NCBI RefSeq assembly: GCF_001885075.1
Contig: NZ_MODU01000004.1
Span: 2,046,001-2,110,000, forward strand
Reading direction: 5' to 3'
Source of the DNA: Alteromonas sp. V450
Lineage (GTDB): Bacteria; Pseudomonadota; Gammaproteobacteria; Enterobacterales; Alteromonadaceae
DNA length: 64,000 nt
The translations under genes and the position numbers were made by a program. Positions 30,327 through 46,578 of the stretch are shown piece by piece. The notes below the pieces were generated by a model. That model saw only the letters and a list, made by a program, of their open reading frames with translations, searched no databases and was not told the origin of the DNA. How positions within the stretch are numbered: position 1 is the first letter of the stretch; the number at the start of each line of letters is the position of its first letter.

Positions 30327-31565
30327 TTACTCAAATCGCAATGCATCTATTGGATTTAAAGCACTAGCCTTGAGCGCGGGCGCAATGCCAAAAATAATGC
30401 CGATGAAAGTTGTAAAGCCAAACGACAATAGAATAGCCCAAAACGGTACGGCAACATCACCGAATGACGGCACCAAAAGGCTCGCAAATAGTGCACATGC
30501 ATAACCCAAAGCAACCCCTACTACCCCCCCTAGCAAAGACAGAAGTACTGCTTCTGTAATAAATTGAGACAAAATGTAGTTCGGTGTTGCACCTAATGCC
30601 TTTTGTATTCCAATTTCTCTCGTGCGTTCGGTTACTGACACCAGCATAATATTCATAATCCCTATGCCCCCTACCAAAAGACTTACACCCACGACGCAGC
30701 CTGCTACCAATGTGACCGAATTGATGATGTTATCAAATTGCGCCTTTGTTTTTTCAGCTGTTGTAAACTCAAAGTTATTTGGCGCGCCGTCCGCTAGGTT
30801 ATAACGCTGTCTCAAAAGGCGAGTCATTTTTTGTTTAATAACGGCGAGGTCACTGCCTTTTTCGGGGTTAAATTTTATCTCAATATTCGACGTAGCGTTT
30901 TCGCCAAAAAGTGACTTCGCAGTGGAGAATGGCGTAACAACATAATTATCTTGATCGAAACCAAATAGGCTTCCTCGCTTCTCCGCAACACCAATCACTT
31001 TAAACCAGTCGCCACCAAGGCTGATAAACTTTCCGATGGGTTCATCTTGGATCTGAAGTTGCCGTGCCACGCTAGCACCAATAAACGCAACTCTTCGTCG
31101 CCTTTTGTCATCGCTTGGGCTGATAAATCGGCCTGCTTGTGGATATACATTGATCACATTTTGATAGCTACTTTCAGTGCCTATTATTTGAGTGACTGTG
31201 CTAAATTGCCCGATAGACACGCTACGATTCAAACTAAAAGGTGTTGTTGACACGGTCATATCTTTAACACCTGAAACCTTCCCTTTAAGTAACGTATAGT
31301 CGTTATAAGACAACTTATTGGTCACACCTAGCATAGTATCGTTTGTATTAGTAAACGGTTTAAGCGTCACCATGTCGCTACCTAAATCTGCTAGCTCGCC
31401 TTTAATAGATGCGCTTGTTCCCTCCAAAATAGCAATTATTGCTATTACTGCTGCCACACCCACGGCAATACCTATCGTCGTTAGTCCACTGCGTAACCCA
31501 TGCGAATGTATTGCTTTAACTGCCGCGCTGGATGTTTCAAATAAAAGCTTCATTGGATTAAGCAT
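30327..31565 (-). CDS. MacB-type ABC transporter permease (FtsX family)
   Basis: A 412-aa permease with an N-terminal membrane helix, a large MacB periplasmic domain, and three C-terminal helices ending in the conserved RTREIGIQKALGATP block and a final helix (FTTFIGIIFGIAPALKASALNPIDALRFE). It lacks the fused nucleotide-binding domain of E. coli MacB; the ATPase is the separate upstream gene (8-bp overlap). With the adaptor gene it forms a tripartite MacAB-like exporter that would use a TolC elsewhere. As the distal gene of the RiPP run it may export or protect against the product. Confidence 0.9.
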   Translation of the reverse strand: MLNPMKLLFETSSAAVKAIHSHGLRSGLTTIGIAVGVAAVIAIIAILEGTSASIKGELADLGSDMVTLKPFTNTNDTMLGVTNKLSYNDYTLLKGKVSGVKDMTVSTTPFSLNRSVSIGQFSTVTQIIGTESSYQNVINVYPQAGRFISPSDDKRRRRVAFIGASVARQLQIQDEPIGKFISLGGDWFKVIGVAEKRGSLFGFDQDNYVVTPFSTAKSLFGENATSNIEIKFNPEKGSDLAVIKQKMTRLLRQRYNLADGAPNNFEFTTAEKTKAQFDNIINSVTLVAGCVVGVSLLVGGIGIMNIMLVSVTERTREIGIQKALGATPNYILSQFITEAVLLSLLGGVVGVALGYACALFASLLVPSFGDVAVPFWAILLSFGFTTFIGIIFGIAPALKASALNPIDALRFE

Positions 31566-32262
31566 ACTGTTTTTGCTCCTGATAATAGTCGTCTATCAGT
31601 AGACCGTCTTTGAGTTTCAAAACGCGTTTACACTGTGCCGAAATCTCATCTTCATGAGTAACAAGCAATAACGTATGGCCTTCTCTGTGAAGCTCGTGAA
31701 AAAGCTGCATTATTTCTGCCGTTGTTTCACTGTCTAAATTCCCGGTAGGTTCGTCACCAAGTAAAATAGCGGGCTCTGTTACCAATGCCCTGGCGATAGC
31801 GATACGTTGCCTCTGGCCACCAGAAAGTTGGTTTGGCAAATGGCATCGTTTATCTGCCAATCCTACCTTTTCTAAAAAATGATAGGCTTTCTCTAACCTT
31901 TTTCTTCTAGCAACCCCCTGATAAACAAGCGGCAGCTGTATGTTGTCAAGAACACTTATTTTCGGTAAAAGATTAAAACTTTGAAAAATAAAGCCTATGG
32001 CTTTATTGCGCACCTGAGAAAGGGCTATTTCGTCGCAATCATTTGTATCTATACCATTTAAGGAATAAGTACCCGTAGAGGGTTCGTCCAGGCAGCCTAG
32101 CACATTTAGTAATGTAGATTTACCTGATCCGGAGTGCCCTGTAATTGCAACATACTCATTTTTTTTGATGGTAAGGTTCGTCGATTTCAACGCATGAAAT
32201 TCTTGTTCGCCAACGACGTATCGTTTGGAAACGTCAGTCAGTTTTATGACATCTTCGTTCAT
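31558..32262 (-). CDS. ABC transporter ATP-binding protein (MacB/LolD type)
   Basis: A 234-aa ATPase: Walker A GHSGSGKST, signature LSGGQRQRIAIA, Walker B LLGDEPTGNLD, and the H-loop VTHED. Overlaps the permease by 8 bp and the adaptor gene by 4 bp, so all three are translationally coupled. It powers the MacAB-like export of peptides, macrolides or lipoproteins; substrate is inferred from context only. Confidence 0.92.
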   Translation of the reverse strand: MNEDVIKLTDVSKRYVVGEQEFHALKSTNLTIKKNEYVAITGHSGSGKSTLLNVLGCLDEPSTGTYSLNGIDTNDCDEIALSQVRNKAIGFIFQSFNLLPKISVLDNIQLPLVYQGVARRKRLEKAYHFLEKVGLADKRCHLPNQLSGGQRQRIAIARALVTEPAILLGDEPTGNLDSETTAEIMQLFHELHREGHTLLLVTHEDEISAQCKRVLKLKDGLLIDDYYQEQKQYA

Positions 32263-44889: not shown

Positions 44890-45321
44890 CGCTTGACTCC
44901 GTTTTTCACATTGTCTGTGTTGTTTCGATGGATTAAATGTACGTTAAAATTTTCGAAAAAATAGCTGTAAGAACTAACAGCCAGATAAATAAAATAAAAT
45001 TTAAATTAATAAAATCAACAATTTAAATAAAATCAAAGTTATTCAACATTGTGAGTTCATCGATTTACTGTCACAAATGACAGTGGTGTTGCGGGTTTTA
45101 AAAAAATATAAAGACGGGACAGTCTGACACCTACGCTTCGCGTGCAATATTCAACGTTTACGTAAATGGTAAATAAGTCGACTGCATTTAAATCTAGCCT
45201 AACAAATAAGTGCTAACTGAAGCATAAGAAACAAGACGTTAATCGTATGTGACTATGAAGTCTTATTGAAAGGTTGATTGAATATTTATGAATTCAGCAT
45301 TAGATACTTATTGGAGCGAAC
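44890..45321. promoter_or_regulatory. Divergent promoter region of the RiPP operon and the cysteine desulfurase
   Basis: A 432-bp AT-rich interval between the divergent permease and cysteine desulfurase genes. Besides the palindrome listed separately it holds low-complexity AT stretches at about 44975-45030 (typical of upstream elements or H-NS-type sites). No ORF was seen. Confidence 0.6.
45067..45084. promoter_or_regulatory. Perfect 7-bp palindrome, candidate operator
   Basis: ACTGTCA and TGACAGT flank CAAA in the divergent promoter region, 178 bp from the permease start and 238 bp from the desulfurase start. A symmetric site placed to serve both units; the regulator is unknown. Confidence 0.5.
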
Positions 45322-46578
45322 GTGAAAAACATAAACCTACCTATTTATTTAGACTATTCATCAACTACGCCCGTTGACCCTCGAGTTGCGGAAAAAATGC
45401 AGGCGAGCTTAACTAAAGAAGGTAACTTCGGAAATCCAGCATCGAACTCACATGTATACGGTTGGAGGGCTTCAGAGGCGGTAGAATACGCAAGGAGCCA
45501 GGTGGCGCGCTTGGTAAACGCCGCCCCAGATGAAATTATTTTTACTTCAGGTGCTACTGAATCAAACAACCTTGCAATTAAGGGTGTGGCCCTTTCGAAT
45601 CAGAGCAAGGGAAATCATATTATTACGTCGCGTACAGAGCACAAGGCCGTGTTAGATAGTGTGCATGCACTTGAAAATTTAGGCTTCAAAATCACTTATT
45701 TAACGCCTTTGGAGAACGGCTTAATTGATATTGAACAGCTTAAAAGTGAAATTCGAAATGACACAATCTTAGTGAGCATTATGCATGTAAACAATGAAAT
45801 TGGGGTCATTCAAGATATTGAAGCAATTGGACATGTATGCAGAGACAATAACGTGTTATTTCACGTTGATGCGGCACAGAGCACGGGAAAAGTTGCAATC
45901 GATTTAACGCAACTTCCCGTAGATTTAATGTCGTTCTCTGCACACAAAACATATGGGCCAAAGGGAATTGGTGCTCTATATGCTTCACGCGCCGCTTGGC
46001 ATTTAATAACAGCTCAAATGCATGGTGGTGGACACGAACAAGGTTTACGCTCAGGTACGCTACCAACACACCAAATCGTCGGAATGGGCGAAGCATTTCG
46101 GCTCGCAAAGAAAGAGATGCAATTTGAGTGCAAAAAAATCGCACAGCTGCGCGACACACTTTACTCGGGGTTGATGTCAATAGGAGGCATTTGCTTAAAC
46201 GGTGACGAAAAGCAGCGTGTTGCCCATAATATCAACGTAAGATTTGAACATATTGAAAACGAAGATCTTATCGCTGCACTACATGGCTTAGCGGTTTCAT
46301 CTGGCTCAGCGTGTAACTCATCTAGTTCAAAACCCTCGTACGTACTCACTTCGCTAGGCTTGACGGACAAACAGGCCAGAAACTCAATTAGATTTAGTAT
46401 TGGTCGATTTACTACAACGAACGAAATACATGAGGCCGTAGACATTATCAAACGTGCTATTTTTAATCTGCGAGAGAAGCGTTGTGTCAGGGATACACCA
46501 CGTAATGCAACGATTAACAGCACAACTCATTTAGTGAATAAGCAACCAGTAACCCTATATTCAAATTCGCTCTTATAA
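45322..46578 (+). CDS. Cysteine desulfurase (IscS/NifS family)
   Basis: A 418-aa PLP enzyme: N-terminal YLDYSSTTPVDPRV, TSGATESNNLAIKG, the PLP Lys in SFSAHKTYGPKGIG, and the catalytic Cys in SSGSACNSSS. It moves sulfur from cysteine to a persulfide acceptor. It is divergent from the RiPP operon, not in an isc cluster (no iscU, iscA or hscBA nearby), and has a 40-residue unconserved C-terminal tail. The simplest reading is a dedicated sulfur donor for the ThiF-rhodanese/MoaD relay and thioamidation. Confidence 0.93.
   Translation: MKNINLPIYLDYSSTTPVDPRVAEKMQASLTKEGNFGNPASNSHVYGWRASEAVEYARSQVARLVNAAPDEIIFTSGATESNNLAIKGVALSNQSKGNHIITSRTEHKAVLDSVHALENLGFKITYLTPLENGLIDIEQLKSEIRNDTILVSIMHVNNEIGVIQDIEAIGHVCRDNNVLFHVDAAQSTGKVAIDLTQLPVDLMSFSAHKTYGPKGIGALYASRAAWHLITAQMHGGGHEQGLRSGTLPTHQIVGMGEAFRLAKKEMQFECKKIAQLRDTLYSGLMSIGGICLNGDEKQRVAHNINVRFEHIENEDLIAALHGLAVSSGSACNSSSSKPSYVLTSLGLTDKQARNSIRFSIGRFTTTNEIHEAVDIIKRAIFNLREKRCVRDTPRNATINSTTHLVNKQPVTLYSNSLL

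Follow-up and report, generated by a model that had tools for sequence, protein, structure and literature searches.

Among characterised ribosomally synthesised and post-translationally modified peptides (RiPPs), thioamides are known from the thioviridamide-like compounds, the thiovarsolins, the thioamidated thiopeptides, the chimeric lanthipeptides and the class added by the paper that lists them (PMC13174530; this and the other sources given by PMC number are cited from excerpts). Saalfelduracin, thiopeptin and Sch 18640 are thiopeptides known to carry TfuA-YcaO thioamides, and TfuA clusters with elements of linear azole-containing peptides (LAPs), mostly with a fused cyclodehydratase and a split LanB, have been depicted (Malit 2021, Figure 5C, PMC8120280), the figure legends of that paper listing ThiS and nitroreductase (Figure 5) and MoeB (Figure 4). 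A Nakamurella dehydrazole cluster combines an azole YcaO, a TfuA-linked YcaO and a LanM-type dehydratase (PMC10676384); thioviridamide-like peptides contain no azoles (PMC6511847). With regard to sulfur, archaeal TfuA hydrolyses thiocarboxylated ThiS, the case of bacterial TfuA being given as to be determined (PMC8153245); TfuA-linked YcaO enzymes beyond high-sulfide habitats tend toward a thiocarboxylated ThiS homologue and a TfuA hydrolase (PMC13063428); and thiF, sufS, moaD and moeB are found near ycaO-tfuA (PMC5589413). Here we analyse a 64-kb stretch of the Alteromonas sp. V450 genome (G000:C4:2046001-2110000, hereafter the window; genome of 4.39 Mb, listed as 100% complete), in which one minus-strand gene run holds a predicted azole-forming and a predicted thioamide-forming YcaO system together with a sulfur carrier relay.

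The run resembles LAP systems such as microcin B17 (McbBCD) in its Cys/Ser-rich precursor, its E1-like protein with a RiPP recognition element (RRE), its PxPxP-ended YcaO, its SagB-type dehydrogenase and its ABC export genes; in contrast to them, it has a second YcaO, linked to TfuA, and a relay with a sulfur carrier. It shares the pairing of an azole YcaO with a TfuA-type YcaO with the thioamidated thiopeptides and with LanB-bearing azole and TfuA loci, relay genes included in eight of ten such loci; however, these carry LanB-type or thiopeptide_ocin genes of their own, whereas the window genome matches neither domain. The Nakamurella cluster, as excerpted, likewise has both YcaO types but also a LanM-type dehydratase. 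The thioamitides (thioviridamide-like peptides) and McrA thioamidation have the YcaO-TfuA pair in common with the run, with a ThiS-type carrier in the archaeal case; the window, given its azole set, does not have the gene content of a thioamitide, nor does it reach the McrA-type cut-offs.

We consider that the run probably makes a linear peptide carrying azoles and at least one thioamide, and that this combined role is the best of the readings weighed below. What is new is the dehydratase-free form with a relay; the relay and the azole-thioamide pairing are each known in kind. The first-pass annotation of this DNA had proposed the combined role and suggested that the combination as such would be new. 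Its two YcaO types, single precursor, relay and lack of a dehydratase stand; the novelty as such is not supported, since ThiS-to-TfuA sulfur transfer has been described, TfuA-LAP clusters have been reported and 13 of 80 related loci pair azole with thioamide genes. In the literature searched, which left most subscription papers outside, no characterised dehydratase-free peptide with azoles and thioamides was found. It is a tentative suggestion, which we hold to be possible rather than probable, that the window offers the first clear example of a linear azole peptide that is thioamidated as well: one precursor would bear thiazoles/oxazoles together with backbone thioamides, made without a dehydratase and fed by a dedicated desulfurase-rhodanese-MoaD-TfuA chain, and would perhaps be hydroxylated by a PF05118 protein.

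Azole and thioamide genes in one run

The run extends from 44889 to 30327 and comprises 15 genes with intergenic gaps of -14 to 118 nt (Table 1), a spacing from which we infer a single operon. Genome-wide, PF02624 matches exactly two proteins, the two YcaO enzymes of the run.

The azole set described in the first-pass annotation, namely a Cys/Ser-rich precursor, an E1-like/YcaO pair with an exact PxPxP end (PHPFP) and SagB, is complete: TIGR03882, TIGR03604 and TIGR03605 all score above their cut-offs, the last two together with the precursor marking a LAP cluster at the gene level. The earlier gene calls proved right overall, save for the start of the E1-like protein, which was moved from 43780 to 43687 on the basis of the homologues P0123 and P0124 (each 305 aa). 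A structure model of this protein (mean predicted local distance difference test score, pLDDT, 73.9) matches TruD/LynD and the McbBCD complex; its modelled N-terminus (residues 1-85) matches that of ThcOx, and the RRE is supported by sequence too. McbC and a McbBCD chain are among the structure matches of the azole set.

The precursor ends in the core RCSCSSHVASCCCKALN, with five Cys and four Ser within the last 17 residues. A database of 5.8 billion proteins holds two homologues (94% and 77% identity), and 44 of the 65 positions are identical across all three sequences, which from ELFDMY to the end vary only at V30/I, A44/S, S58/C and the final residue; such a conserved leader and core would be the pattern expected of a RiPP precursor. 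The unmodified window peptide has a monoisotopic mass of 6951.10 Da.

The second YcaO, also as the first-pass annotation had it, is without a PxPxP end and is joined to TfuA, its stop overlapping the TfuA gene by one base; a YcaO (PF02624) adjoining a TfuA (PF07812) is the gene arrangement of TfuA-dependent thioamidation. Its nearest solved structure is MJ1094, it retains all positions that are invariant across a 37-row alignment of relatives, and its M86 and H189 lie near the Met and His named by Malit 2021 as preferred in TfuA-linked YcaO enzymes, the numbering match being approximate. Residues 4-217 of TfuA match the solved TfuA domain 6xp8. A YcaO 90% identical to the second YcaO exists elsewhere; the second YcaO is in none of the 58 congeners searched, and viral contigs held only 10 distant YcaO proteins (30-34% identity).

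A carrier with a GG end, a MoeB/ThiF-type E1 and a rhodanese domain (PF02597, PF00899, PF00581) make up the gene set of a thiocarboxylate relay, and all are present in the run, the MoeB-rhodanese carrying CYRC and CNAC pairs in addition to the rhodanese Cys346. The genome has three ThiS-family matches, the MoaD-like carrier being one of them; since there are two others, the carrier of the run is an additional one. The divergent cysteine desulfurase of the first-pass annotation is a second IscS, 56% identical to the genome's next-best match (the copy at 1862227), and is the likely sulfur source. That annotation was silent on the two ABC systems, the Yip1-like protein, the protein with a HELVH motif and the hydroxylase.

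Table 1. Features of the window; numbers in the first column give the gene order in the run.
Gene	Feature	Coordinates	Strand	Support
1	ABC-2 permease, first gene of the run	44095..44889	-	PF01061
2	Precursor peptide, 65 aa	43806..44003	-	two homologues
3	E1-like protein, N-terminal RRE (leader binding; cyclodehydratase C protein)	42770..43687	-	TIGR03882, 54.9 bits (cut-off 36.9)
4	Azole-type YcaO (SagD), PHPFP end	41367..42773	-	TIGR03604, 221.9 bits (cut-off 219.25)
5	SagB-type flavin dehydrogenase	40490..41326	-	TIGR03605, 109.3 bits (cut-off 78.4); McbC 6gos match
6	459-aa protein, HELVH...E motif from residue 135	39091..40470	-	motif only, no family match
7	ABC transporter ATPase, probable partner of gene 1	38148..39101	-	PF00005
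8	MoaD/ThiS-like sulfur carrier, GG end	37864..38151	-	PF02597, 36.4 bits
9	MoeB-like adenylyltransferase with C-terminal rhodanese (CQSGLR loop, Cys346)	36732..37877	-	PF00899, PF00581; MoeB 1jw9
10	Second, TfuA-type YcaO, predicted thioamide synthase	35481..36719	-	PF02624; best NCBIfam match TIGR03266, 251.8 bits
11	TfuA protein with extra C-terminal part	34156..35481	-	PF07812; 6xp8
12	Yip1/YknW-like membrane protein	33451..34143	-	PF04893; NF052650 below its cut-off
13	Periplasmic adaptor (membrane fusion protein)	32259..33419	-	TIGR01730
14	MacB/LolD-type ABC ATPase	31558..32262	-	NCBIfam
15	MacB-type permease	30327..31565	-	NCBIfam
	Second IscS-type cysteine desulfurase, in insert	45322..46578	+	NF010611, 584.8 bits
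	TPR and aspartyl/asparaginyl beta-hydroxylase domain, in insert, adjoins IscS	46816..47967	+	PF05118, 145.1 bits
	Insert of about 22.9 kb carrying the run	about 25131..48043		flanks 21882-25130 and 48044-48526 adjacent in congeners

Dehydratases and related loci

Neither Lant_dehydr_N (PF04738) nor Lant_dehydr_C (PF14028) gave a match at E 0.001 in the window genome, and these negatives have a control because both models did match in genomes of related loci; the lack of a lanthipeptide-type dehydratase, stated in the first-pass annotation, thus extends to the whole genome. Nothing resembling the LanB seeds occurs among the 1017 frames of the window, no LanM-type dehydratase turned up when the insert was scanned with Pfam and NCBIfam, and the same scans of its proteins found no phosphotransferase/HopA1-type domain (the three transport genes at 30327-33419 by NCBIfam alone; two of the three small peptides and MoaD-like ORFs elsewhere outside the scans). 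Measured against a thioamidated-thiopeptide cluster, the window has the TfuA-linked and the azole YcaO and lacks the split LanB and the LanB-C-type cycloaddition enzyme. These genome-wide and window-wide negatives, obtained in a genome listed as complete, make it very improbable that the product is an unusual thiopeptide-like, non-linear one, dehydrated by an enzyme that escapes recognition, even though the precursor-like open reading frames (ORFs) of the related clusters L088, L089 and L090 look thiopeptide-like by eye and the 459-aa HELVH protein offers itself as a protein without an assigned function.

Relatives were obtained by an alignment search with the second YcaO over 84,980 species genomes, which yielded 346 of them, the best 80 loci being kept (a scan of genome contigs with the single second-YcaO protein confirmed no relative, whereas the alignment scan did). 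TfuA is present in 79 of the 80 loci. An azole-type YcaO accompanies 13, within 10 kb in 12 of them and farther out in L003, and ten of these hybrids hold a LanB-type or thiopeptide_ocin gene (L003, L004, L007, L010, L012, L014, L015, L035, L036, L047); SagB-like and MacB-type or ABC-2 transport genes are also found in the mapped LanB-bearing hybrids. Across nine genomes searched with PF04738, the score was above the cut-off in six and below it in one (G099, on another contig), with no match in two (G100, G106). The hybrids without LanB alongside are L006, from a Polyangium metagenome-assembled genome (MAG), L056 (Pseudoalteromonas sp. SMS1) and L066 (Actinopolymorpha rutila); as in the window, a TfuA-type YcaO lies near an azole-type YcaO and LanB is not seen nearby, but unlike the window they have no MoaD or MoeB-rhodanese nearby. 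The absence of LanB from L006 is weak, the MAG amounting to 2.6 Mb, and in the L056 genome PF14028 does match, though on a different stretch. Relay genes surround eight of the 13 hybrids (L003, L004, L035, L036, L047, L010, L014 and, with MoaD only, L007; L012 and L015 were read to 10 kb only). Among the 14 hybrids including the window, only the window was seen with relay genes and without a LanB-type gene.

Two stretches deserve mention. In a Polyangium MAG, L096 10363-10899 (-) holds three precursor-like ORFs, paralogues of one another, whose ends are rich in CxC, e.g. ACACTTSCNCTSCSCVGWASSS, and which adjoin two SagD, SagB, an E1-like protein and YcaO-TfuA, a second candidate for a LanB-free azole and thioamide cluster. 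The Paracoccus aminophilus plasmid pAMI4 (L149 1080-13170) carries MoaD, MoeB, an ABC transporter, a thiopeptide-type protein, YcaO, a leader-binding protein and a nitroreductase in one row, so that relay genes and azole and LanB genes ride on a plasmid too; there is no TfuA in the pAMI4 stretch read.

As regards the relay, MoaD or a clear MoeB-rhodanese (>150 bits) lies within 10 kb of the thioamide-type YcaO in five of the 80 loci. The first-pass annotation had named a relay set away from azole genes as an observation that would tell against the combined role, and this was not found in any of the five: an azole YcaO lies within 10 kb in four of them and about 14 kb away in L003; L008 has a weak 55-bit MoeB match only, without an azole YcaO. 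Counted by Fisher's test, the relay occurs in 4 of 12 loci with an azole YcaO versus 1 of 68 (p 0.0014), a result to be taken as a hint, given that related rows count as independent, that L008 is left out and that 36 of the 80 loci hold less than 20 kb of sequence. This distribution suggests that the relay is not a bystander of azole and thioamide loci. In L035, L036 and L047 (L090-L092), which are azole, LanB and TfuA clusters of Aquimonas, Bowmanella and Glaciecola, MoaD is fused ahead of rhodanese-MoeB, with its AGG inside the chain. A JAMM-type protease gene stands directly upstream in all three of these fused-MoaD loci and was found in none of the three loci with a free MoaD and an AGG end (the window, L003, L004), a pattern which fits a carrier that needs an exposed GG end, although the loci are few and two are close kin.

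A quick tree of 92 thioamide-type YcaO proteins places the window in a 20-row clade with a Shimodaira-Hasegawa-like approximate likelihood ratio support of 100. Seven of the eight other named loci of this clade are azole and LanB hybrids, the eighth (L005) being a 5.8-kb contig and too short to tell. On the tree the azole label changes eight times, against 13.3 for shuffled labels, where none of 500 runs came as low, a contrast inflated by near-copies; the count of eight takes 11 database (P) rows as having no group and falls to five without them. The simplest reading is that the thioamide half of the window shares ancestry with thiopeptide-like LanB-bearing clusters, and the tree would fit a loss of LanB here or a gain elsewhere. 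From such an ancestry one could argue that only azoles are formed and that the thioamide half now lies idle, left over from a thiopeptide-like ancestor after the loss of LanB, as the readable loci of the clade carry LanB-type genes and none matches in the window genome. We hold this to be quite unlikely: the YcaO, TfuA, MoaD and MoeB-rhodanese frames are all intact, their conserved residues are in place, and the 90%-identical YcaO exists elsewhere.

For the azole half no near relative emerged from order-wide and plasmid searches with SagD. The window SagD matched in nine of 394 genomes of the order, its own included, with no other above 49.6 bits, and in 67 plasmid records with a best identity of about 29%. 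Towards the LanB-bearing loci, TfuA, YcaO, MoeB-rhodanese and MoaD of the window show 32-52% identity and SagD just 20-25%. A mosaic origin, with the two halves from different sources, was suspected on these identities and is not claimed, the SagD tree leaving the window unplaced; approximately unbiased tests of three SagD groupings rejected none (p 0.295, 0.413, 0.139).

Proposed pathway and points against it

Under the combined role, the RRE of the E1-like protein would bind the conserved ELFDMY...LYSSTGA leader, whereupon the PHPFP-ended YcaO would cyclise some of the five Cys and four Ser of the core and SagB would oxidise the products to azoles. A cysteine desulfurase (the second IscS or the other copy) would charge the rhodanese Cys346, and the MoeB domain would adenylate the GG end of the MoaD-like carrier on the way to a thiocarboxylate; TfuA would then hydrolyse this thiocarboxylate beside the second YcaO, which would replace an oxygen of the backbone by sulfur. 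Leader cleavage may be the task of the HELVH protein, and export of the product would run through both ABC systems.

Several points weigh against this pathway. No feature of the precursor points to the position of a thioamide, and the product is a prediction from the genes. The second YcaO attains 251.8 bits against an equivalog cut-off of 365, and TfuA 224.5 against 235.2 (McrA thioamidation models TIGR03266/NF033432); because these scores lie under the cut-offs, the two proteins are kin of the McrA thioamidation system and not members of it. The window SagD is a long branch, its placement unsure, and 11 of the 20 rows of the thioamide YcaO clade are database proteins without a readable neighbourhood. 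IscS is present in none of the 80 loci, its role resting on its location in the insert, and the HELVH protein is likewise present in none of them and in no family library tried.

If the combined role holds, a single short peptide would suffice for studying how two YcaO enzymes form azoles and thioamides, with no dehydratase chemistry in between, and the locus would show how a core is divided between two YcaO systems and whether they share a leader. The complete and compact sulfur chain in the run would, with five proteins, render testable the sulfur supply of bacterial RiPP thioamidation, a question named in the excerpt of PMC8153245. The association of the relay with azole and thioamide loci and of JAMM with fused MoaD are simple genome-mining rules to try.

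The insert and neighbouring genes

The genes flanking the region are neighbours in all five congeners read; L131 has about 1.5 kb between them, the other four 119 to 296 bp. Of the insert genes, 20 were queried, and none was found in the congener stretches at E 1e-20 (the shortest ORFs, precursor and MoaD among them, not queried); since the flanks adjoin there without the queried genes, the roughly 22.9 kb between them constitute an insert. Visual inspection of its ends revealed no obvious target-site repeat, nor do the 20 largest of the listed repeat families include one. Besides the gene run, the insert contains regulators, the genes of three small peptides, IscS and the hydroxylase, the latter two being tied to the cluster solely by their location in it; the PF05118 hydroxylase is possibly an extra tailoring enzyme. 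The HELVH protein, a possible leader peptidase, gave no significant match in Pfam, NCBIfam or PDB sequence searches, and a structure predicted from its own sequence is unusable (mean pLDDT 38.3).

The three small peptides are tandem ORFs at 26779-26982, 26993-27196 and 27206-27448 (-), of 67-80 aa, with a 214-nt unit and signal-like N-termini, and all end in a common TVCILLPQLCN[KR]; they adjoin a LuxR/GerE regulator (26094-26768), for which these apparently secreted peptides are perhaps a signal. Their presence in the same insert, and the fact that YcaO enzymes thioamidate proteins too (uL16 and McrA in the excerpted literature), would allow two systems to share the run, SagBCD making an azole peptide and the second YcaO, TfuA and the relay thioamidating some other peptide or protein, e.g. 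these small peptides. This division of labour is unlikely, however, as the YcaO-TfuA genes and the precursor form one tight run, related loci hold the same thioamide module with azole genes, with precursor-like ORFs in L003, L006 and L036, and the small peptides look Sec-exported by eye, a poor fit to cytoplasmic modification.

Just downstream of the run (28028-30148, -) lies a CadC-like regulator that combines a winged helix with a propeller-like C-terminal region. A 36-nt AT-rich repeat, 78% identical, occurs upstream of the small-peptide genes (27559-27594) and upstream of the RiPP run (44997-45032), and could be a shared regulatory site or a chance match in AT-rich DNA. Beyond the insert, ORF pairs of equal size (272 and 140 aa) at 50390-51627 and 58060-59297 look, by ORF sizes, like two copies of one insertion sequence.

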